A DNA stretch of 44,124 nt from Acidimicrobiia bacterium (GCA_003235475.1 QJWC01000103.1:1-44124), one strand, 5' to 3'. Numbered from the stretch's first letter, positions 13,928-25,462 are shown. Program-made: numbers and translations. The notes: a model not told the origin generated them from the letters alone.

Positions 13928-15445
13928 TTACTCCTCGGTGACCTCGACCACGAATCGGAAGGCGGGAAGATCCTCGCCCGGGTGGTCATCGGCGTATGTC
14001 AACTGCGGAAGTCGGAAGTTGACCGCCCCCCGGATGTCCTCCCCGCGATAGATCGCGGGGTAGAAGTCGACATAGTGGAACCCAGGTTCACCCGCGAGCG
14101 GCAAGTAGATCTGGATGTCACCCTGGCTGTTGAAACCACACGCGAAGCCGACGTACGAGTTGTCGTAGACGACCGTGTAGATGTTCGCCGTCTCGGTCCA
14201 GCCCACACCCTTGACGTGGAAGAGCGCCATCGTTCCGGCGGGGCCGACGCCGTTCTCCACCGCGATCGCAGAGGGCTTGATGTCGAACTCGGTGGACGCA
14301 ACGGTATCGCCATCGGCGACGGCGTCGATCCGATGTGGGCCCCCGAGATCGTCGAGGGCTGCGAAGTCGTAGGACATCGTCCCATCGTCCTCGGGGGTGA
14401 TCGTGCCAAGCTCGACACCCACCTCAGACCACCCGCCCCCGGACACGCGGCTTCCTTCCTGCCGGTACCACATGAGGGAGATCGGTACGGTGGGCATGTT
14501 GTGCCCGGACACGGTGACTGGCGTGCCTACCGGCCCGCTGGTCACATCCGTCCAGATCGCTGGAGCTCCCGTGTCCTCGGGTGCTGTGCCGCTTGCGACA
14601 GGGAATCCCTGTTGGGCTGCTGGCGGAGGCAGGACTGCTGGCCCGTCGGTCACCTCGAACTCGAAGGTGAAGACGGGTCTGTCCGGTCGTGGCGACTGCT
14701 GATTGTTGAGGTATGGGACGTGACTCCAGCCGTGGGTCAGTTGGATCACATGTGTGCCCGGAGGGCCAACCGCGGGAATAACTGCCTGGGCCGAACCGTC
14801 GGTTGTCACCGCTGACACCCAGCCCGTGTACGAGTTGTCGTACGTGAGCTGCCAACTGTTCTCGAGGTACCCATAGCCCATGCCGTTCACCTCGATGGTG
14901 ATTGGCGTTCCCACTGGGCCGGAGGTCGGGTTGATCGACATCTGCATCTCTGTGCGGAACGCCGCACGGTTGAGCAGATCCTCACCCTGATGCACGGTGA
15001 CGTTGTGGGTGAATCCAAAGTCCTTCGGCACCTCGAAGTCCACCTCGAAGTTCCCCTGATCGTCGGTTGCCACGCTTGCCAGCGGCACATCCTCGGTTAC
15101 GAACTCGCGGCCGTAGTACTTGCCCTCGACGAGGTCCACGTTCCACGTCGCCGTGGTGTCTTCCCAAGCAAGGATCACTTCCGTGTCAGCGGGAAAGCCA
15201 GAGCCAGCAGCGGTCACCATCGTGCCGATTGGCCCACCTGCGGGTGTCAGCTGCAACTCCCCTACGAATACCGGTGCTTGCGGTTCCTCAGGTGCAGTCG
15301 ATGATGTCGTCGGCGTCTCGGTAGTCGACGTCGTCGATTCGGAGGCGGCCGAACTCGTACAACCAGCAAGCAGAAGGGTGATCGATACGCCCCATGCGAC
15401 ACCGGAACGAGAGACTCGCCTATGTCTCTTTGGCCTCCTGGTCAT
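13928..15445 (-). CDS. Lipoprotein with IPT/TIG-like beta-sandwich repeats
   Basis: 505 residues. A signal peptide ends in the lipobox LLLAGC, followed by a Ser/Thr-rich linker (TTSTTETPTTSS). Four modules follow, each beginning with a P-x-G-P-x-G-T-x-V/I motif (GGPIGTMVTAAGSGF, SGPVGTPITIEVNGMGY, SGPVGTPVTVSGHNM, VGPAGTMALFHVKGVG), the hallmark of IPT/TIG Ig-like folds. It should be an extracytoplasmic scaffold or binding protein. The ATG at 15445 has GGAGGAAGG 7 nt upstream; the open frame extends two codons further to a TTG. Last gene of the minus-strand redox operon, after a hairpin (15485-15532). Confidence 0.8.
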   Translation of the reverse strand: MTRRPKRHRRVSRSGVAWGVSITLLLAGCTSSAASESTTSTTETPTTSSTAPEEPQAPVFVGELQLTPAGGPIGTMVTAAGSGFPADTEVILAWEDTTATWNVDLVEGKYYGREFVTEDVPLASVATDDQGNFEVDFEVPKDFGFTHNVTVHQGEDLLNRAAFRTEMQMSINPTSGPVGTPITIEVNGMGYGYLENSWQLTYDNSYTGWVSAVTTDGSAQAVIPAVGPPGTHVIQLTHGWSHVPYLNNQQSPRPDRPVFTFEFEVTDGPAVLPPPAAQQGFPVASGTAPEDTGAPAIWTDVTSGPVGTPVTVSGHNMPTVPISLMWYRQEGSRVSGGGWSEVGVELGTITPEDDGTMSYDFAALDDLGGPHRIDAVADGDTVASTEFDIKPSAIAVENGVGPAGTMALFHVKGVGWTETANIYTVVYDNSYVGFACGFNSQGDIQIYLPLAGEPGFHYVDFYPAIYRGEDIRGAVNFRLPQLTYADDHPGEDLPAFRFVVEVTEE

Positions 15446-15484
15446 CAGCAATCCTTCCTCCGGGTACTTCCTATTTCTTGAGGG

Positions 15485-15532
15485 GTGCCAGATCCATGGT
15501 CACGACTCGGGCGTGTGGCATGGATCTGGCAC
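15485..15532 (-). terminator. Long inverted repeat between two lipoprotein genes
   Basis: GTGCCAGATCCATG and CATGGATCTGGCAC form a perfect 14-bp stem with a 20-nt loop. On the minus strand it follows the coiled-coil lipoprotein stop and precedes the TIG lipoprotein ribosome site. It could be a partial terminator, an mRNA stabiliser or a protein-binding palindrome. Confidence 0.55.
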
Positions 15533-15546
15533 TCCCGCGTCTCGGT

Positions 15547-16191
15547 TCACGCAGTGACGTCCATCACGGTCAACAGCGACGGAGCGACATTGAACGGCTC
15601 GAACGTTCCGGTCCGACCATCCGTCGCGGTCGCGGTGATGGTGTATGACACATTGCCCGCCGGATACCCAGCGAAGATCTCCCAGCCGTAGGTCCAGAAG
15701 AAGTCGTTTTCGGTGTTGGGTGGATGTGGTCCCCAGTGGAGCTCGAACTCCTGACCGTCACTCAACGTCAAGGTCACGGACTCCAGACCCTCATCGTCGA
15801 GCTGCTCGCCCGTCACTGGATCGAAGACACGAACCCTGAAGGTGGCCTTTGCCTCGCCATCGTTGACGTACGCGTTCTGAAGCATGCATCCTTCCCCGAC
15901 GATGTCGGCTTGGAGGATGAGCGTCTGACCCGTTTCGGCGATGGTTCCCTCGAGCGCCGCCTTCTCTTCACTCAAGCTGGCGTTCTCAGACTGGAGGGTT
16001 TGCGCCGATTGCTCAAGGTCAGCGACACTCGACTCGAGGTCTGCAACGGTCGATTCCAGGGCAGCGTTCGCCGATTCGAGCTCTGCGATGTCCGCCTGAG
16101 CCTGCTCGAGCTCGCTGTTGTTACTACAGGCGGTGATTGCCGCCACCAGGGCCACGATTACAAGGACCAGTCGTATCTTTCTCACGGGCAT
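15547..16191 (-). CDS. Coiled-coil lipoprotein
   Basis: 214 residues. The signal peptide has lipobox AITAC. Heptad-rich sequence then covers about residues 28-88 (LEQAQADIAELESANAALES and similar Leu/Ala/Glu repeats), predicting a long coiled coil. A C-terminal domain of about 110 residues is beta-rich with aromatic residues (WGPHPPNTENDFFWTYGWEI). The coiled coil probably gives trimeric or dimeric assembly or spans the wall; the outer domain is unrecognised. ATG 16191 is favoured (GAGGAGG 9 nt upstream) over ATG 16197 (3 nt). It lies 72 bp downstream of the cytochrome gene on the same strand. Confidence 0.75.
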   Translation of the reverse strand: MPVRKIRLVLVIVALVAAITACSNNSELEQAQADIAELESANAALESTVADLESSVADLEQSAQTLQSENASLSEEKAALEGTIAETGQTLILQADIVGEGCMLQNAYVNDGEAKATFRVRVFDPVTGEQLDDEGLESVTLTLSDGQEFELHWGPHPPNTENDFFWTYGWEIFAGYPAGNVSYTITATATDGRTGTFEPFNVAPSLLTVMDVTA

Positions 16192-16263
16192 AGTCATCGA
16201 CCTCCTCGGGTCAGTCGTCGGAGGACCGCTTCAGCGATCCAATTCAGTGCACGGTGGTGGGTG

Positions 16264-17574
16264 TCACTCAGCAAAAATCACCTCGATCCATCCGAGGTGG
16301 GAGCTCTGAACGTGGTCCCGGCGGCCCCATCCGTTCTGTCCCGCATCGGGATCCCAATACGCCAACGCGAGCTGGCTGGACTCCCCGACGGAGAATTGAG
16401 CGTCCTGCTCATCGCCCGTCTGCAGCGGCCGGCGCATCTCGAAATACCATGTGCCGTCTCCATCCTCGATTGGGTTCGAGTGGGAGAACACACCGAGGAG
16501 GCTGTTCTCGGCGGTGTCGCCAACGTCGTCGTCGTGGGTCTCGGGATTGGTCGCCCACTCGTCATCGAAGTTGCACGTCCCGTCGTTGCCGGGATCGCCG
16601 TTGCCGGGTCCGTGGGCGGCGCCACCCTGCTCCTCACCGATGGGACAGTCGAGGCGCCAGTACCAGATGTCGACCATCCCGAGGGCTGGCATGCCGGACG
16701 GGTCGTCGCTGCCCATATGTGGTCCGGCGGCACTCTCGATCGGCCACATCACGGCGGGGGCTCCGCTGTAATGAGGGTCTACTTCGCTCCAGTTGAAGTC
16801 GTCGTCAACCGTGTAGAGCACATAGACGAACTCGTCGTCGTGGGCGACCTTGATACTCGCGGCGTGGGGTGGCGCCGACTCACCCTGAATGGGTTCGAGC
16901 GTCAGTTCGACTCCAGGGATGGCGTCCCAGTCGGAGGGATCACCGTCGACGACGATCCCCGTGACGGCAGGCGCTTCCACAACGAGCGCCTGTTGTTGCA
17001 TGGTCGTCGTGGTTGTCTCGCCCGGCGGTTCGTTGCCCGGTGTCGTCGTTGTGGTGGCGACCGTCGTTGTTGGTGCCGGAGGCCGTGTCGTGGTGGTCGT
17101 GGTGATACCCAGATCCGCTGCTGCCCCGGGTGCACCCTCGAGGAAGGTGAGAATCAGCGCAAGGTCATCATCGGTGAGGTAGATCTCGGTGTACGCAGGC
17201 ATTCCTGAGGGTCCCTCCCGGACATCGCGGACGAAGTCGGCGAACTCCTCGCCGGGCACGTCCCATAGCGTGCCCCCGACGGTGGCTCCCTGGGCATGGG
17301 TTCCGTGGCAACCGATGCAGCCTGCTCGCGTAAAGAGGTTCTTCCCTGCCAGCCATCGATCGCTTGGGTTTCTGATCTGGTCCGCGCTGCTTCCGTATCC
17401 GACGTACGTGTACTCCCGGTCGAGGTAGGCAAGCTCCGTTCGGTCGTAGAACTCGGGGTCCTCGAGATTGGCATGCGTCGCTGGATTCCTGAGAATGACG
17501 ATCACAAGGGTCGTAGCGACCACGATGGCGGCCACGAAGATCACCGTGGCGATGTTGAAGCGGGGTCGGTTCAC
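16264..17574 (-). CDS. Membrane-anchored cytochrome c fused to an ethylbenzene-dehydrogenase-type haem domain
   Basis: 436 residues. An N-terminal helix (about 8-28) anchors the protein. A class I cytochrome c domain has CIGCH at 86-90 and a likely axial Met in SGMPAY (Met125). A Thr/Pro-rich linker (about 155-195) leads to a domain with the hallmarks of the DMSO-reductase-family haem-binding subunit (EB_dh type): VDGDPSDWDAIPGVELTL, DDEFVYVLYTV, GMVDIWYW and a C-terminal SSQLALAYWD. This predicts one c-type plus possibly one b-type haem, outside the membrane. GTG start, overlapping the upstream gene by 4 bp. It is the natural electron partner of the Fe-S/NrfD module. Confidence 0.85.
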   Translation of the reverse strand: MNRPRFNIATVIFVAAIVVATTLVIVILRNPATHANLEDPEFYDRTELAYLDREYTYVGYGSSADQIRNPSDRWLAGKNLFTRAGCIGCHGTHAQGATVGGTLWDVPGEEFADFVRDVREGPSGMPAYTEIYLTDDDLALILTFLEGAPGAAADLGITTTTTTRPPAPTTTVATTTTTPGNEPPGETTTTTMQQQALVVEAPAVTGIVVDGDPSDWDAIPGVELTLEPIQGESAPPHAASIKVAHDDEFVYVLYTVDDDFNWSEVDPHYSGAPAVMWPIESAAGPHMGSDDPSGMPALGMVDIWYWRLDCPIGEEQGGAAHGPGNGDPGNDGTCNFDDEWATNPETHDDDVGDTAENSLLGVFSHSNPIEDGDGTWYFEMRRPLQTGDEQDAQFSVGESSQLALAYWDPDAGQNGWGRRDHVQSSHLGWIEVIFAE

Positions 17575-18152
17575 GGCACTTGCTCCTGACCGGCGTGATC
17601 AATCGTGCGGCTCGCCTCTGCCTCCCTGGACACCTGGATTGGCCCGATCATGGCGAATTGAATGATCGCCCACACACCCACGAGGAGCGCGATCAGGACC
17701 CAAGCGCCCAAGCCGGGGATCCGAACGCCGTTGTTCGAACGTACGATCTGCGAGCCGAGACCCTCGGTCACAACCGACTCAGGGACCGACTCGAACTCGA
17801 CTTCACCGGCCGCGGCATACGCAACGATGACGGTGTCCGATCGGCCGCTGTGCTCGCGCCATCGGAGGATGGCGATGCCGTTGCGGTCGGTGATGGATCG
17901 GGCGATTTCCACCGTGCCGTCGATCCCGAGCATCGAGGCATCGCGGCTCGCGACAACGACGGCTCCGGGTACCCGTGCACCGGAGTCTGCGAGCCTGACG
18001 ACAACCCGCATCTGAACCACCTCGCCCGCAGCGACGGTCTGCGGTGCCGACACCTCGGCATCGAGATGGTCAGCCCGAGCAGCTGACGACGCTGAGGCAA
18101 GGGAGCTCACCACGACGGTGACGAGTATCAGCCATCGAAGCGCGCCCTTCAC
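17571..18152 (-). CDS. Ig-like membrane protein of the redox operon
   Basis: 193 residues: signal peptide (MKGALRWLILVTVVVSSLAS), an Ig-like beta domain (APQTVAAGEVVQMRVVVRLA, GNAI/GIAILRW-type strands) and a C-terminal membrane helix (LGAWVLIALLVGVWAIIQFAM) with a short charged tail. It resembles a periplasmic domain tethered at its C-terminus. The enzymatic role is unknown, and a structural subunit of the complex is plausible from its place between NrfD and the cytochrome. It overlaps both neighbours by 4 bp (ATGA/GTGA), indicating translational coupling. Confidence 0.72.
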   Translation of the reverse strand: MKGALRWLILVTVVVSSLASASSAARADHLDAEVSAPQTVAAGEVVQMRVVVRLADSGARVPGAVVVASRDASMLGIDGTVEIARSITDRNGIAILRWREHSGRSDTVIVAYAAAGEVEFESVPESVVTEGLGSQIVRSNNGVRIPGLGAWVLIALLVGVWAIIQFAMIGPIQVSREAEASRTIDHAGQEQVP

Positions 18153-19501
18153 GATCTGCCCCTCACCGCGTCAGGCGCCGGTGCGGCGCTCTCCCCGTCG
18201 CGCCCCAACAGCTTGCGCTCTTCGACCATTTCCCAGACGGCCATGATCGGGAAGATCTTCACGAACACCGCGATCAGCAGTATGAAGAAAGCGATGGCAG
18301 CGGCAAAGATCGACCATTCAACCCATGTAGGCATGTAGTCGAACGGCTCGTACGGCAGCAGCGGGACCCGCTGCGCCGAGATCACGATGAAGTACCGCTC
18401 GGCGAACATTGCGACGTCCACGAGTACGGCAGCGGTGACGATCCCGGCGATGGTCCGGGTTCGTTTGAAGAGGATGATCAACCCGGGAATGGCAAGGCCA
18501 CCGATGAAGTAGAACCAGTAGAGGCCAGCGAACTGCCCGAGGAAGAGCTGTCGGAAGAGGAACTCCTCACCCTCTTCCAGCTTGAATCCGGTGGTGAGGT
18601 ATTCGGAGAGGTTGATGTACATCATGATCAACGTGAATGCGGCGAGGAGGTAGCCGAGGTTCACGAACTGGACCTTCGTGATGTACTCCTCGAGGTGGTA
18701 GATCCTGCGCAACAAGGCCATGACGATGACGAGGGTTGCTATCCCCGAGAAGATCGCCCCAGCGACGAACAGGAGGCCGAAGATCGTGCTGTTCCATCCA
18801 ACCCGCAGGGTCATGCCGAAGATCCACGACACCACAGTGTGCACCGAAACCGCGATCGGGATGATGATGATGGCCAGGACACCGACTGCGCGGCTGAGCG
18901 CCTTCACCTGTCCGGGGAGACCCTCCCAGCCGATGGCGAAGAACCGGTAGAAGGCCGCCCTCGTCCGGTGCCCCATGGACGCCATTCGGTCCCTGAAGTA
19001 GGCCACATCGGGAACCATTGGTATTCCCAGGTATATGACGCTTGCCGTCAGGTAGGTCGTGATCGCGAGGACATCCCAGAGAATTGGTGACTGCCACCGG
19101 CCGTGGATGATCACGTTGAGCAACCGATCGGGGCGACCCATGTCGACGACGATCAGCGAGGCGCCACAGACGAGCGCAACAACCGTGATGAACTCTGCGA
19201 TCCGGGTTATCGGCGTCCGCCATTGTGCTTTGGTGACCCGGAGGATCGCGGAGATCAGCGTTCCTGCGTGGCTGATGCCCACAAAGAAGACGAAGACTGA
19301 GATGTAGAGACCCCATGCAACCCGATCCCGCATTCCAGTGACGACGAGGCCGTTGTCGAGCTGCGTCGTCCAGGCGTAGACGCCAACCCCGATCACAGCG
19401 AGGAGAACCCCTACGAGAACCCAGTACCAGGAGGAAGTGACCAGGACTGGCCGCAGCGTGGTCTCCTCGAGGCGCCTTTCGTACTCCCTCAGCGACTCCA
19501 C
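18149..19501 (-). CDS. NrfD/PsrC-family quinone-interacting membrane subunit
   Basis: 450 residues with about ten hydrophobic segments, typical of NrfD-like proteins in polysulfide reductase, alternative complex III and related complexes. Recognisable parts are VAWGLYISVFVFFVGISHAG, VDMGRPDRLLNVIIHGRW and SPILWDVLAI. These proteins exchange electrons between the quinone pool and a partner Fe-S subunit and may conserve energy. The start is GTG 19501, with GGAAGGG at proper spacing. This overlaps the Fe-S gene by 13 bp; the frame extends much further upstream only as antisense-type sequence. Usually paired with a molybdopterin catalytic subunit, absent here. Confidence 0.88.
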   Translation of the reverse strand: MESLREYERRLEETTLRPVLVTSSWYWVLVGVLLAVIGVGVYAWTTQLDNGLVVTGMRDRVAWGLYISVFVFFVGISHAGTLISAILRVTKAQWRTPITRIAEFITVVALVCGASLIVVDMGRPDRLLNVIIHGRWQSPILWDVLAITTYLTASVIYLGIPMVPDVAYFRDRMASMGHRTRAAFYRFFAIGWEGLPGQVKALSRAVGVLAIIIIPIAVSVHTVVSWIFGMTLRVGWNSTIFGLLFVAGAIFSGIATLVIVMALLRRIYHLEEYITKVQFVNLGYLLAAFTLIMMYINLSEYLTTGFKLEEGEEFLFRQLFLGQFAGLYWFYFIGGLAIPGLIILFKRTRTIAGIVTAAVLVDVAMFAERYFIVISAQRVPLLPYEPFDYMPTWVEWSIFAAAIAFFILLIAVFVKIFPIMAVWEMVEERKLLGRDGESAAPAPDAVRGRS

Positions 19502-20517
19502 GTCTGGGACCCTTCCACTCGCTGCACCCACGGCCACTCGGTGGGTTCCCTGCCCTCGGTGAATGGATCGCGTCCGACCGCCTCGCCATGCCCGGGGATG
19601 TAGAAGACCCTGGGCTTGGTCCCCAGATGCTCTTTGAGCACCTCGGCGTTGTTCGTGGTGAGGAAGCGTGATACGGAAACGATCTCGCGTCCGTTGGTCG
19701 CGATGTCCTCCTCGAGATCCCCGTAGTAGATGGCTCCGTTGGGACATGCCTGCGAGCAGTACGGAAGCGTGCCAGCCCGTGCCATGTCGGGGCACATGTC
19801 GCATTTCATGACCGTGCCCTTGGTGGCGGGGATCTGATGATCCGGCGAATAGTCAGCGAGCAGCGCCTCGGGCGGAATCGGCGGATCCGACCAATTGAAG
19901 AAGCGGCGATCGTAGGGGCACGCTGCCATGCAGATCCGACAGCCGATGCACCGTTCTTGGTCGATGAGTACTGCGCCCTCAGGCGTGGAGAAGGTTGCCC
20001 CGACCGGGCACACATTGACACACGGGGGGTTCTGGCACTGCATGCACGGTGTTGGGAGGAATCGGGTGCCGCCTCCTTCGAGTTCCTCCTCGAATACCTG
20101 AATCCACTCCATGGGTTCAGGTGCGAGGTGCCCCTCGATGCATGCCGTGGTGCACTTGGGGGGCGAGTCCTGACTCTGGCACCCATCGCAGGAACGCAGA
20201 TCGATGATCATTGTCCACTGCCGTATCCGGCCGCCAGGGCCGGTGGCTGGACTTTCCGTTGACGCAACTCCGGCTTCACTGTTGAAGACCGCGGGCAGGG
20301 CCACAGCGGGGAGCACGCTCAGGCCCCCTATCCCGACGACCTTCAGGAAGGTGCGGCGGTCACCAGAGAGGATGGCCTCATCAGGCTGCAGGTCTTCGGA
20401 GGGCGCGCTCCCTTCCTTCCGGCCGCCGCGAACGCGTCGACTGAGCAGGACCCTGAGGGCGAAGAAGAGTGTGAGGACTACGACCACACCGATGAGGAGT
20501 GCCGTCGCAATAGTCAT
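19489..20517 (-). CDS. Four-cluster [4Fe-4S] ferredoxin-type subunit with membrane anchor and Tat-like motif
   Basis: 342 residues. An N-terminal membrane helix (ATALLIGVVVVLTLFFALRV) is followed by DRRTFLKVVGIGGLSVLPAVALP, which resembles a Tat-type segment (RRTFLK). The Fe-S region then carries four Cys clusters: CDGCQ with CTTAC, CMQCQNPPCVNVCP, CIGCRICMAACP and CDMCPD with CSQACP. This is the arrangement of PsrB, NrfC and DmsB-type subunits that wire NrfD to a catalytic subunit. The combination of a membrane helix plus an internal Tat-like motif is unusual. ATG 20517 is chosen; TTG 20553 is an alternative. First gene of the operon. Confidence 0.87.
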   Translation of the reverse strand: MTIATALLIGVVVVLTLFFALRVLLSRRVRGGRKEGSAPSEDLQPDEAILSGDRRTFLKVVGIGGLSVLPAVALPAVFNSEAGVASTESPATGPGGRIRQWTMIIDLRSCDGCQSQDSPPKCTTACIEGHLAPEPMEWIQVFEEELEGGGTRFLPTPCMQCQNPPCVNVCPVGATFSTPEGAVLIDQERCIGCRICMAACPYDRRFFNWSDPPIPPEALLADYSPDHQIPATKGTVMKCDMCPDMARAGTLPYCSQACPNGAIYYGDLEEDIATNGREIVSVSRFLTTNNAEVLKEHLGTKPRVFYIPGHGEAVGRDPFTEGREPTEWPWVQRVEGSQTWSR

Positions 20518-20769: not shown

Positions 20770-22620
20770 ATGGGTGAGCATGCGGGCGAGGACTTCCAAT
20801 ACGTGACACCGCGTTCTTCCTCGACGACGGGTGGGCCACCAGTGAGCGGTTCGCGTCGCTGGGGGTTCTCGCGCGCAAGGTGGGCCAAAGATGGCGGGCC
20901 GTTGTCCCAGGACGAGGGGAACGTCGAAGCGCGACGCCGGTGGTTGCCGTCATTCGATCGTCAGAAACTCAGCCCCTGGCATTCGCGTCAGAACTCCGGA
21001 CCGTCGCGCCGGGAGCTCGAGCTCTTGGTCCGCGAGCGAACTGCCGAGCTGGAACTCGCCATCGAGCAGATGGAAAGCGCAGACACCATCATCGACCGGT
21101 GGACGCTCGACGGCGTAATCCACTACATGAACGACTTCGGCCTCCAGACCCTCGGGTATTCCGCCGAGGAGGTCGTCGGCCGTCGAAGTATCTACTCCAT
21201 CGTTCCCGACGATCCCGAGCGACTGGCCGAATGGTTTGCAGTCCGCGACCAGCTCGAGGCGAATCCGCATCGCAACGTCCACTCCGAGTTGCAGTGCAAG
21301 CACAAGGATGGATCCCCCGTCTGGATTGCCTTTCGCAATCGTCCGATCCTCGACGCCGACGACAGAATCGTCGAGGTGTTCAGCGTGGGAATCGATATCA
21401 CCGATCGAAGGCTCCGGGAATCGAGGCTGGCCGCCGACAACCGGCGAATGGTCGATGAGTTGGCGATCGGGCGTGAGATCCAACTCAGCATGCTGCCGGA
21501 TGGGGCACCGGAGTTCCCGATGCACGACGAGTTCACCGTACGGGCCCTTCTCGAGCCGGCCCGGGAAGTCGGTGGCGACTTCTACGACTTCTTCCTCATC
21601 GACGACCGACATCTCTGCGTCTGCGTCGGCGACGTATCCGACAAGGGCGTGCCTGCGGCGTTGTTCATGGCGGTCACGAAGACACTCATCGTCTCCAGGG
21701 GAAGTAATGACACCTGTCCGGCGAGCATCCTTCGGCACGTCAACGATGAGCTGTGCCGTCGGAACGACCAGTCGATGTTCGTCACGATTTTCATCGGGGT
21801 CCTCGACACTCAGACGGGAACGCTCCGCTTCTCGAATGCCGGGCACAATCCACCGATTGTCAGACGGGCGGACGGAAACCTCGACGTGCTCGACCCTCGG
21901 CATGGACCGGTGGCCGGGGTGGTCGAGGGCTTCGACTACCGGTCCGACGAAGCGGTGCTCCACCCCGGTGACCAGCTGGTCATGTACACCGACGGCGTCA
22001 CCGAGGCGATGGATCCGGACAACGTGGCGTTCGGCGACGATCGATTGCTCGCCGTGCTCGGTGGCCCAGTCCCCGATCCGACGACCACGGTCGAGGTTCT
22101 GTTCGATGCCGTCACCGCTCATGCAGGCGAGCGTGACGCATTCGACGACGTGACAATCCTCGTCCTCGCCTTCCACGGACAGGGGAGGCTCCCTTCCGCA
22201 GGGTGTGAGCTCATCCTCGATCACGATCGCGCAGCGATAGCCGGCGCACTCGACCGCCTCGAGCAGTGGATGGCCGAACGCGACACTCCGGACGAGGACC
22301 GTCGTGCGTTGCTCACCGTTGCTGACGACCTGCTCACAAATGCCATCGAACACGCCGACGGCAGTGCGCCGGTCGTGACGACCCTCGCGATCACCGATGG
22401 GTGGCTGGAGTTCACCGTGAGCGACGAAGGGTCCCCCTTCAACCCGTTCGAGGTCGAAGTACCCGATACGGATGCGCCCCTCGAGGACCGCCGGGCGGGG
22501 GGCTTGGGCATCCACCTGGCGAGATCGCTCATGGATAGACACGAGTACGACCGGACCTCGGGCCGGAACGTCGTACGCGTATCGAGGAAGATCAACGGTG
22601 CGGGAGGAGCGGAACAATGA
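20770..22620 (+). CDS. PAS-SpoIIE (PP2C) phosphatase with C-terminal HATPase domain
   Basis: 616 residues. A basic N-terminal stretch is followed by a helix (about 75-100), a PAS domain (IIDRWTLDGVIHYMNDFGLQ, VEVFSVGIDITDRR) and a linker with ELAIGREIQLSMLPD. A SpoIIE/RsbU-type PP2C domain comes next (EVGGDFYDFF, CVGDVSDKGVPAALFMA, NAGHNPP, MYTDGVTEA). The C-terminal domain is a GHKL ATPase of anti-sigma type (ADDLLTNAIEHADGSAPVVT, GGLGIHLARSL). Such proteins switch partner-switching pathways by removing or adding phosphate on STAS antagonists. An in-frame TGA just upstream fixes the 5' limit; ATG 20770 has only a weak ribosome site. It overlaps the STAS gene by 4 bp. Confidence 0.9.
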   Translation: MGEHAGEDFQYVTPRSSSTTGGPPVSGSRRWGFSRARWAKDGGPLSQDEGNVEARRRWLPSFDRQKLSPWHSRQNSGPSRRELELLVRERTAELELAIEQMESADTIIDRWTLDGVIHYMNDFGLQTLGYSAEEVVGRRSIYSIVPDDPERLAEWFAVRDQLEANPHRNVHSELQCKHKDGSPVWIAFRNRPILDADDRIVEVFSVGIDITDRRLRESRLAADNRRMVDELAIGREIQLSMLPDGAPEFPMHDEFTVRALLEPAREVGGDFYDFFLIDDRHLCVCVGDVSDKGVPAALFMAVTKTLIVSRGSNDTCPASILRHVNDELCRRNDQSMFVTIFIGVLDTQTGTLRFSNAGHNPPIVRRADGNLDVLDPRHGPVAGVVEGFDYRSDEAVLHPGDQLVMYTDGVTEAMDPDNVAFGDDRLLAVLGGPVPDPTTTVEVLFDAVTAHAGERDAFDDVTILVLAFHGQGRLPSAGCELILDHDRAAIAGALDRLEQWMAERDTPDEDRRALLTVADDLLTNAIEHADGSAPVVTTLAITDGWLEFTVSDEGSPFNPFEVEVPDTDAPLEDRRAGGLGIHLARSLMDRHEYDRTSGRNVVRVSRKINGAGGAEQ

Positions 22621-22943
22621 GAATCCACGAGGAGAGATTCGAGGGGGCGGTAGTGGTGCACCTCGCCGGTCGGCTCGACACCAGCACGGCACCTGAAGTC
22701 CAGGCGCATCTGGAGTCGGTCGTCGGTGAGGGCGTGGATGTGGTGGTGGTGGGCCTCGACGACCTGGAATTCATGTCGAGCGCCGGGTTGCGGGTTCTCC
22801 TGGCCACTGCCAAGCGCCTGCGCCCGACCGGTTCGCTCCGACTGTTCGGACTCAACTCAACGGTGAGGGATGTCTTCGATGTGTCCGGCTTCTCGATGAT
22901 CTTCCCGGTCTTCGAGGATGAGCCGGCCGCCCTGGCCGGGTGA
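22617..22943 (+). CDS. STAS-domain anti-sigma factor antagonist (RsbV-like)
   Basis: 108 residues, a complete STAS domain. It has EGAVVVHLAGRLDTSTAPE at the start and LDDLEFMSSAGLRVLL containing the phosphorylatable Ser54/Ser55. The neighbouring SpoIIE domain should dephosphorylate this site, and the HATPase domain may phosphorylate it. ATGA overlaps at both ends show it is translated together with the phosphatase and the large fusion protein. The target (a sigma factor, or another GHKL protein) is not in the window. Confidence 0.9.
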   Translation: MRIHEERFEGAVVVHLAGRLDTSTAPEVQAHLESVVGEGVDVVVVGLDDLEFMSSAGLRVLLATAKRLRPTGSLRLFGLNSTVRDVFDVSGFSMIFPVFEDEPAALAG

Positions 22944-25462
22944 GAGTCGTGCAGGCCGTCATCGTCGGAACGGGACTGTCGAACCGCCGGCTGGGTACCG
23001 AGCACCCATATGTCGGCAACCCGGAGCATGTCGGGATCCGCGAGGTCAACCGACTTCTTGGCACGGGCAATGACTCGAGCCCCGGACCCCTCCCGACGGT
23101 GATCAGCCGTGCAGGCGCTGCCGAGGTGGGACTCGTGCTCGTGACCGGTGCAGACCCCGGTGTTGAGGATGCCCTGGTCGAACCCGTGACGCTCGCGGCC
23201 CCCGAAGCGACCCTTCTCAGGTCTGCTGGAGCGGCGATCCCGTGGCGCGAAATGGACGAGCTGCTCGGGACGAGCTGGCCGAACGCGACGGCGTTCTTGG
23301 TGGTCGGTTCGCGCACTGAGCACGAGGTCGCTTCACTGGCGACGATGCTCCGGAGTCTGCGCCCACACGCCGCCATCGCGGTTTCCCGCCATCTGGCCGC
23401 AACAGCGACTCCGGATGCGCACTTCGCGACCCTGCGCCACACGCTTCCCATTCAAGGTGTCGACGTACTCCTGGATCTGCAAGAGGTCGGTGCATTCCTC
23501 GGGCTTCCGGCTGGGACCTTCGACACCTTCGCCGAGCCGGGATGCCCGGTGGAGCCTGAGGAAGTCTGCGCGATGCTCGGCGAGACGCGCCGCCGCATCG
23601 TGAAATCACTGATCATGCATTGGAGCCGAACGAAGCTCCGACCCCTGGGCGGGGGATTCTCGGGTAGTGCTCTGTTCATCGCCGAAGGATGGAAGGGAGA
23701 GGCACGGACCGAGCCAATGGTCGTCAAGATCGACGGCATAGACCAGATGCGCCGCGAGCTCGATGGTTACCACCAGGTCAAGGATCTGCTCGGCAAGCAC
23801 GTTCCGTCCCTCGGCTATCCGGTCCGCGGCGACGGCATGCTCGGGGTGGGCATGGAACTGGCGGCGATGGATGGGTCTCCCCAGACCCTCCAAGAGACCT
23901 TCGAGGCAGCCACCACGGACGGCGACTACGCGATCTTCTTCCGTCGTCTCGAACGGAGCCTCGAGATGCTGAGCGAGCGACTGTATCGAAATACCAGCAG
24001 TGAGGCGTGGGTCGCCCCCTATCGATCCTTCGGTCTGCACACCGAAGACCAGCTCCGGTGGCTCCGTGAGAACGGCGACTACATCGTCGGGTACCTCGGG
24101 CCGAACCACTCATACGGCGTCGACATCGAGCGCTTGGTGCAACTGCTCCAGATCGTCGGTGCCAACCCAGACGGCCTCGACGGGCAGGTGGGGATCGTTC
24201 ACGGGGATCTCAACTACGCCAACATCATTTCCGACGCAGGCGACAACCTGTGGTTCATCGACTGGACCCTGTCGCGCTCCGCGCCGATCGAGATGGACTT
24301 CGCCAAGCTCGAGAACGACATCAAGTTCGTCATATCCAAGGACTTCGAGCTGTCGGAGCTCGGCCGACTCCGCGCCTTCGAGGACTACCTCCTCGCCGGG
24401 CCACTCCCCGGTGACGTGGACGAGCTTCCTGATGCACTGCGATACGCGCGCTGGGACCTGCGATACCGGAAGATTCTGACCGCCGTTCGCCTCATCCGCC
24501 GGTCGTGTCTCGAACTGAAGGGTGACGACGACTGGCTCGTCTATCGGATCGCCTTGCTCCGTTACGCCGCGCACACGCTCAGCTGGGACCTTCGTCGCGG
24601 CCGAGGAGAGTGTGACGTACCCCAATTGGCGTACGCGCTGTACTCCGTGGAAGCCCTGCTCATGGATCTTGTGGGCGATGATTTCCACCTCAAGATCCGC
24701 GCGGAGCGAGCCCCCGGATACCCAGAGCGACAGCGGATCCCGATCGACGAGGCACCGTGGGACGTTCCCTGCAACGACTACGCGCCCCCGTACCATGTGA
24801 GCGAAGCCGTGCTCGCAGCCGACCGTTCCGTTGTGCCCGGAGGATGGGCCGACCCGGAGGACATTTCCGCCCTGAGTGGGGAACTCTCCCAGCGTCCCGC
24901 CGATCATCACGACGCGGGAGGGCGACCGCTCAACCCGCGGGGCCGGACCGGTATCGCCGGCCGGGGATCCCTCGGGAGATGGGGTCCGAACCGCTCCGCG
25001 TCCGTCATTACGGTACGGCGAAATCCGGCGACGGACCGACTCGACATCCTCCTCGGCTCCGGGGCCGACGGTGTGCTCGAGGTTCCCAAGGGCTTCCTGC
25101 GTGAGGGCGAGCCACCCCATGAGGCCGTTCGCAGGATCATCGAAAAGGAAACCGGATGGGAAGATCTACCTGAGTTGGAGCCGGGCTTCTTCGAGGGCTA
25201 TGTCTACGATCCTCGCCAGACGGACCATGCCTGGGTCGAAACCGGTGCCCACGTCCTCGAAGTCGATCCGTCGAGGCGCGTACCAGAGCACCACCCGGGT
25301 AGCCCATACGCCGAGATCGGATGGTGGCCCCTCGATGCCGAGACGGTCAACCAGGTTCCCGCGGTGCAGGCTGGCCTCGTGAGGGAAGCGGTTCGGCACC
25401 TCGCCCGCAGCGATCGCATGGATCAGAAGGAAGCCTCCGCGCTGCTGGCGGCCACGGGATGA
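22940..25462 (+). CDS. Fusion protein: isochorismatase-like region, APH-type kinase, NUDT9/TRPM2-type ADP-ribose domain
   Basis: 840 residues. Residues 1-210 look like a degenerate isochorismatase/cysteine-hydrolase fold (ATAFLVVGSRTEHEVASLAT, HFATLRHTLPIQGVDVLLDL) without the catalytic Cys; this call is tentative. Residues 230-560 form an aminoglycoside-phosphotransferase-type kinase: loop LGGGFSGS, Lys in MVVKID, catalytic HGDLNYAN (H421, D423, N428) and FIDW (D441). Residues 605-830 match the NUDT9 family: APWDVPCNDYAPPY, NPRGRTGIAGRGSLGRWGPN (665-684) and YDPRQTDHAWVET (756-768). The Nudix box (718-740) reads R732-I-I with K736 in place of a Glu, as in the inactive human TRPM2 sensor. The GTG start overlaps the STAS stop. 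Confidence 0.85.
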   Translation: MRVVQAVIVGTGLSNRRLGTEHPYVGNPEHVGIREVNRLLGTGNDSSPGPLPTVISRAGAAEVGLVLVTGADPGVEDALVEPVTLAAPEATLLRSAGAAIPWREMDELLGTSWPNATAFLVVGSRTEHEVASLATMLRSLRPHAAIAVSRHLAATATPDAHFATLRHTLPIQGVDVLLDLQEVGAFLGLPAGTFDTFAEPGCPVEPEEVCAMLGETRRRIVKSLIMHWSRTKLRPLGGGFSGSALFIAEGWKGEARTEPMVVKIDGIDQMRRELDGYHQVKDLLGKHVPSLGYPVRGDGMLGVGMELAAMDGSPQTLQETFEAATTDGDYAIFFRRLERSLEMLSERLYRNTSSEAWVAPYRSFGLHTEDQLRWLRENGDYIVGYLGPNHSYGVDIERLVQLLQIVGANPDGLDGQVGIVHGDLNYANIISDAGDNLWFIDWTLSRSAPIEMDFAKLENDIKFVISKDFELSELGRLRAFEDYLLAGPLPGDVDELPDALRYARWDLRYRKILTAVRLIRRSCLELKGDDDWLVYRIALLRYAAHTLSWDLRRGRGECDVPQLAYALYSVEALLMDLVGDDFHLKIRAERAPGYPERQRIPIDEAPWDVPCNDYAPPYHVSEAVLAADRSVVPGGWADPEDISALSGELSQRPADHHDAGGRPLNPRGRTGIAGRGSLGRWGPNRSASVITVRRNPATDRLDILLGSGADGVLEVPKGFLREGEPPHEAVRRIIEKETGWEDLPELEPGFFEGYVYDPRQTDHAWVETGAHVLEVDPSRRVPEHHPGSPYAEIGWWPLDAETVNQVPAVQAGLVREAVRHLARSDRMDQKEASALLAATG

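Follow-up and report, generated by a model that had tools for sequence, protein, structure and literature searches.

A six-gene redox operon and its relatives

We examined a 44,124-nucleotide stretch of DNA from an Acidimicrobiia bacterium (GCA_003235475.1 QJWC01000103.1:1-44124; hereafter, the window), in which positions 13928-20517 hold six genes, all on the minus strand, for an iron-sulfur (Fe-S) protein, the membrane protein NrfD, an Ig-like membrane subunit, a cytochrome c joined to an EB_dh domain, and two lipoproteins. An earlier note on this DNA had described six co-directional genes with these products, four of them overlapping, and no molybdopterin partner. We find all six as described, genuine overlaps of 13, 4 and 4 bp along the run from Fe-S through NrfD and Ig to cytochrome c, and no molybdopterin subunit among the genes examined in the window. 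The lipoprotein genes come after the overlapping four, with gaps of 66 bp and 95 bp. In order of transcription, the genes are:

19489-20517, minus strand: Fe-S subunit, 342 aa, start at 20517; four complete four-cysteine sites and the twin-arginine (Tat) motif RRTFLK
18149-19501, minus strand: NrfD quinone-binding membrane subunit, 450 aa, GTG start; PF03916, E = 2e-36
17571-18152, minus strand: Ig-like subunit; signal/transmembrane segment, Ig-like domain, C-terminal transmembrane segment
16264-17574, minus strand: cytochrome c/EB_dh protein; Cytochrome_CBB3, E = 4e-8, and EB_dh, E = 1e-14 (Pfam)
15547-16197, minus strand: lipCC, a coiled-coil lipoprotein with a conserved C-terminal domain
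13928-15451, minus strand: lipTIG, a lipoprotein built from repeats of a TIG/Ig-like domain; ATG at 15445 is the likely start

The operon copy is the sole NrfD gene of the host genome, an assembly of 2.14 Mb in 117 contigs with 95% completeness. When operon content was compared in relatives, the order Fe-S, NrfD, Ig, cytochrome c was found to recur among at least 66 distinct loci, defined by an Fe-S protein with core-family scores, mainly in metagenome-assembled genomes (MAGs) of Acidimicrobiia and Chloroflexota; these and all other locus counts given here were made among the matches listed and therefore are not prevalences. Because this order recurs in other phyla, the operon is not a chance arrangement. 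Where at least 4.5 kb lay downstream, NrfD and the Ig subunit were each present at 41 of 42 loci and cytochrome c at 34 of 42; EB_dh or a lipoprotein was found at 18 of the 42 (EB_dh at 12, lipCC at 5, lipTIG at 6), and these three are optional parts of the module. Both lipoproteins belong to the operon set: lipCC has homologues next to these genes in Chloroflexota as well as in a second Acidimicrobiia MAG, and one Dehalococcoidia MAG (L079) has Fe-S, NrfD, Ig, cytochrome c, lipCC and lipTIG in the order of the window. Fe-S relatives of at least 50% identity come mainly from Acidimicrobiia and Chloroflexota MAGs, SAR202, Dehalococcoidia and Limnocylindria among them; a few are from Rokubacteria and one is from Armatimonadetes, and an outer tier at 40-50% identity includes Euryarchaeota MAGs. 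Several loci lie alongside a HisKA_3 histidine kinase and a LuxR-type response regulator (NarX/NarL type). What lies here is a real, conserved electron-transfer operon, and not a broken one.

Conserved residues of the Fe-S/NrfD pair

The NrfD start is best placed at the GTG inside the Fe-S gene, a longer open reading frame to 19804 being an in-frame extension only. The best solved matches of NrfD are ActC chains (6f0k_C, E = 1e-56 with the single sequence and 3e-80 as a profile), at about 32% identity. We mapped its residues to ActC numbering through the profile alignment, judged invariance in 18 sequences, and took the roles of the ActC quinone-site and ion-path residues from published work (PMC8076601). 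His97, Thr100, Ser103, Arg114, Arg119, Glu122 and Thr125 of the ActC N-side path correspond to His77, Thr80, Ser83, Arg94, Arg99, Glu102 and Thr105 of NrfD, and all seven are invariant (18/18). At the quinone site, Ser164 and Asp169 of ActC are kept as Ser137 and Asp142, and His139 is replaced by Asp119, the residue type found there in DsrP, PsrC and QrcD; Glu367/Arg368 is also retained relative to ActC. As judged from this alignment, NrfD has a predicted quinone site on the P side, with most of the ActC quinone and ion-path residues retained. In a quick tree with some long branches, whose deeper order is unsure, the NrfD family and its outer tier stand apart from ActC (SH-aLRT 99), from DsrP and from multihaem-linked NrfDs.

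From its N to its C terminus, the Fe-S protein consists of a hydrophobic helix, the Tat motif and the four cluster sites, with all 16 cluster cysteines present. Its cluster-I motif carries an insertion (CDGC-x8-CTTAC) that is kept across the core family. The pattern CxGC-x8-CxxxC, typically CDGCQSxxxPPQCTxAC, is the mark of members with at least 50% identity; L080, L089, L093 and L112, where the contig was truncated or the pattern fell elsewhere, were left unscored. The insertion is absent from the outer tier and from DsrO/PsrB-like proteins, whose motif is CxGCxxCxxxC, and is diagnostic of the Fe-S family. With PF03916 and Fer4 matches, the 16 cysteines, and Ser137, Asp142 and Asp119 conserved, the pair has the features of an NrfCD-type module.

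The cytochrome c, EB_dh, Ig and lipoprotein parts

The cytochrome c/EB_dh protein joins a monohaem class-I cytochrome c (CIGCH), through a Thr-rich linker, to an EB_dh domain at about residues 198-436. The predicted fold of this domain matches EbdC and NxrC (Foldseek 2ivf_C and 7b04_C), gamma subunits of type II enzymes of the DMSO reductase family, with a TM score of 0.78 by target for EbdC; a profile sequence search aimed at EbdC returned only NxrC and CBM proteins, EbdC being recovered by the fold search. The domain is highly conserved. Its Met287, present in 20 of 21 sequences, falls opposite a Met that two type II gamma-like subunits of the phylum share. We take Met and Lys to be the haem b ligands of type II gamma subunits, the Lys ligand being known for EbdC. 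Although the fold and the Met position are shared, the module differs from EbdC/NxrC in that EB_dh is fused to cytochrome c or is a separate lipoprotein, there is no alpha subunit, the Lys position is not conserved, and Cys310, Cys334, His365 and His421, present in all sequences, are added; the score against the type II gamma model TIGR03477 is 25 bits (cut-off 170).

Fusions are of three kinds. Most or many Acidimicrobiia have Ig joined to cytochrome c; the window, G002 and L103 have cytochrome c joined to EB_dh; and in L060 it is EB_dh that is joined to Ig. They indicate that Ig, cytochrome c and EB_dh are physically tied. The Pfam match of the Ig subunit itself is weak (E = 0.06), and a homologue matches Big_1 at 2e-8. 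We rejected an assignment of this subunit as an ActD homologue, as the proteins at the ActD position look unrelated in alignments. A fold search with lipTIG returned generic Ig-like chains with low TM scores, and these matches hold no cofactor clue.

Related arrangements were seen elsewhere. Two EB_dh domains lie in tandem within a single protein at L044 15531-17465, L062 2579-4351 and L101 13404-15125, and a PSCyt1-like domain without any CxxCH is fused to the Ig subunit at L114 12032-13453 and L115 12177-13295. A second operon type, without a molybdoenzyme gene, is headed by an EB_dh protein (L037 752-6335; L038 9566-15098) and includes a GltD-like flavoprotein with two 4Fe-4S motifs, a split cytochrome b, a Rieske protein and a dihaem cytochrome c; EB_dh at the head of such a cytochrome b/Rieske operon suggests that the domain takes part in quinol oxidation, on its cytochrome side.

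Relation to known Fe-S/NrfD systems

The earlier note had called the module an orphan, reasoning that the Fe-S/NrfD pair of known complexes serves a molybdopterin subunit. That premise is too narrow. DsrOP, NrfCD (with NrfA/NrfB), HybAB, the MccACD pair and ActC serve partners other than molybdoenzymes (PMC8076601), Shewanella SirCD is a quinol dehydrogenase without a molybdenum subunit, and Geobacter Cbc4 (CbcSTU), like SirCD, passes quinol electrons to cytochromes without one (PMC11434368). Since known pairs work in this way, orphan is the wrong word.

Molybdenum-free modules, QrcCD among them (PMC13059093), are thus already known, and the present one would work in their manner. By content, scores and tree it is not alternative complex III (ACIII; ActABCDEF), DsrMKJOP or Psr-type. 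It resembles ACIII in that ActC is the closest solved relative of its NrfD and in the order Fe-S, NrfD, two-transmembrane protein, monohaem cytochrome c, as in L149. However, no pentahaem ActA, molybdoenzyme-like ActB domain or ActF was seen in the operon, the two-transmembrane protein is Ig-like and not ActD-like, the Fe-S protein is separate with a Tat motif, and NrfD lies outside the ActC clade; because the host has only one NrfD gene, no ActF is found in its genome either. With DsrOP the module shares a separate Tat-signal Fe-S protein, an NrfD of 8-10 transmembrane segments and the lack of molybdenum, but its NrfD is only ~26% identical to the two DsrP proteins compared and falls in a different clade, its scores lie below the NCBIfam cut-offs (164 of 200 bits for DsrO, 129 of 350 for DsrP), and the operon has no DsrM, DsrK or triheme DsrJ (DsrAB was not searched). 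Cbc4 and SirCD differ by description, having other cytochrome partners, and Ig, EB_dh and a TIG lipoprotein are not described there. In the open-access papers searched, which leave most subscription journals outside, we found no description of Ig, EB_dh and a TIG lipoprotein combined with Fe-S/NrfD.

Proposed function and electron outlets

The reading we favor, and hold to be somewhat probable, is that the module encodes a molybdenum-free quinone:cytochrome electron-transfer complex on the outer (P) face of the cell membrane, a menaquinol:cytochrome c oxidoreductase with a haem b exit. Menaquinol would be oxidized in NrfD at the P-side site, and its electrons would enter the Tat-exported Fe-S subunit, travel along its four [4Fe-4S] clusters to the monohaem cytochrome c, which the Ig/transmembrane subunit would hold tethered to the membrane, and go on from there to a putative haem b in EB_dh; the lipoproteins may be scaffold or docking parts without a cofactor. 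The window's genome carries two genes for haem-copper oxidases, together with a bc-type set of cytochrome b, Rieske and dihaem c genes, and its sink would likely be a haem-copper oxidase or the cytochrome c pool; polyhaem or surface cytochromes may serve as the sink in some relatives.

The neighbors of the module in relatives vary. Polyhaem class-I cytochrome c genes come after it in G012, G036 and G042, in the last of which a cytochrome b gene also adjoins; G002 has 9-haem, cytochrome b561-like and NapC/NirT-like genes downstream; hexahaem genes flank the module in L125; and haem c assembly genes follow it in L068. In a Dehalococcoidia MAG (L096 4538-7534), an MtrC/MtrF-like decahaem gene (PF22113, E = 8e-54) lies upstream, separated from the module by genes for a response regulator and a Band 7 protein. 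Terminal oxidase genes had seemed to stand beside the module in L112 and L068; the candidates were rejected, the genes being those of a sulfate permease, LPG synthase and BrkB in L112 and of cytochrome c assembly in L068. This variety of cytochrome neighbors supports swappable outlets over a single fixed partner. More tentatively, the module could represent a separate branch of quinol-oxidizing complexes in Acidimicrobiia, Chloroflexota and a few other lineages, in which an EB_dh haem b of the molybdoenzyme-gamma type has become the exit of a molybdenum-free NrfD complex with swappable outlets (oxidase, polyhaem cytochrome or surface decahaem).

If the proposal is correct, the module is an unnamed conserved respiratory complex of largely metagenomic lineages, SAR202 and groundwater Chloroflexota among them; it would form a further quinol:cytochrome branch near alternative complex III and place the EB_dh domain at work outside molybdoenzymes, and it would call for caution in annotating module genes as polysulfide or nitrite reductase.

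Several observations weigh against this proposal. The source is one MAG-like assembly, with the contig number and completeness given above. With a bc-type complex already present in the genome, there is no gap for the module to fill; a role as a complex III replacement was rejected, cytochrome b being present. ActC Asp253 is Ile226 in NrfD, the sole listed quinone-site residue to be lost. EB_dh does not conserve the Lys-ligand position; His421 is only a few residues away, in an alignment uncertain there by 1-3 residues, and Met/His ligation of haem b, with His421 replacing Lys, is a guess. Nor is the cytochrome universal, since the domain after the Ig part in L114 and L115 has no CxxCH. Finally, Qrc-type NrfD modules work in the opposite direction, the NrfCD-type QrcCD reducing menaquinone with cytochrome c3 electrons (PMC13059093).

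This last precedent favors electron uptake, in which an extracellular or periplasmic donor would reduce EB_dh/cytochrome c, and Fe-S/NrfD would reduce menaquinone in a Qrc-like manner. The EB_dh fold shared with type II gamma subunits also counts for it: those subunits hand on electrons from substrate oxidation. We nevertheless think uptake unlikely, as no dehydrogenase adjoins the core in the loci surveyed, the nearest NrfD relative, ActC, oxidizes quinol, and energy would have to be spent to reduce menaquinone with electrons at the potential of cytochrome c.

We are more doubtful still that quinol electrons pass via EB_dh and the lipoproteins to minerals or other cells. Such extracellular transfer would work like Geobacter Cbc4 and Shewanella SirCD (PMC11434368), and the MtrC-like decahaem gene of L096, the 9-haem, b561-like and NapC-like genes of G002 and the hexahaem neighbors in L125 speak for it. 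In the host genome, however, CxxCH codon motifs show no excess (140, of which 100 were listed by position, vs 154 for a control pattern), and there is no multihaem gene near the window operon. The outward-facing conduit that the earlier note had read from the lipoproteins is compatible with some relatives, such as L096, and finds no such support in the module's own genome.

The molybdoenzyme question

The module might be a piece of a known molybdenum reductase or dehydrogenase with its catalytic gene at another place in the genome. In favor of this, the Fe-S subunit resembles TtrB/PsrB, and EB_dh resembles the gamma subunits of type II enzymes. A search of flanking and distant loci gave no linked candidate in the genome: PF00384 matched only NuoG, an FdhA with an in-frame TGA, and a BisC/TorA-like protein, all on other contigs, and a partner encoded elsewhere in the genome was rejected on this result. 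Across the 66 loci, a molybdoenzyme homologue lies within 9 kb of just one (L108), on the opposite strand and 8.7 kb off, and is absent near the other 65, with the limits that sensitivity for very distant molybdenum proteins was not measured and that many contigs end near the operon. The same probes do detect a Tat-signal molybdenum subunit beside a Psr-like Fe-S/NrfD pair in the relative G020 (L038), and so are able to find such a partner. The module thus lacks the molybdenum subunit encoded with the pair that defines complex iron-sulfur molybdoenzymes of the Psr/Ttr/Dms type, and we regard this explanation as very improbable. We give least credence to a degraded or incidental cluster without a single function, for which one could cite the patchy distribution and a same-genus genome (G001, 90% complete) with no match to the cytochrome c/EB_dh protein or NrfD, but against which stand the conserved order, intact residues and fusions repeated across phyla.

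Other observations

The FdhA-like gene with the in-frame TGA, possibly encoding selenocysteine, is at L001 (G000:C46:27986-29245). A viral fold search gave no match. Adjoining the operon, positions 20770-25462 encode a divergent PAS-SpoIIE-HATPase protein, a STAS-sized protein and a TCAD9/APH/NUDIX fusion.

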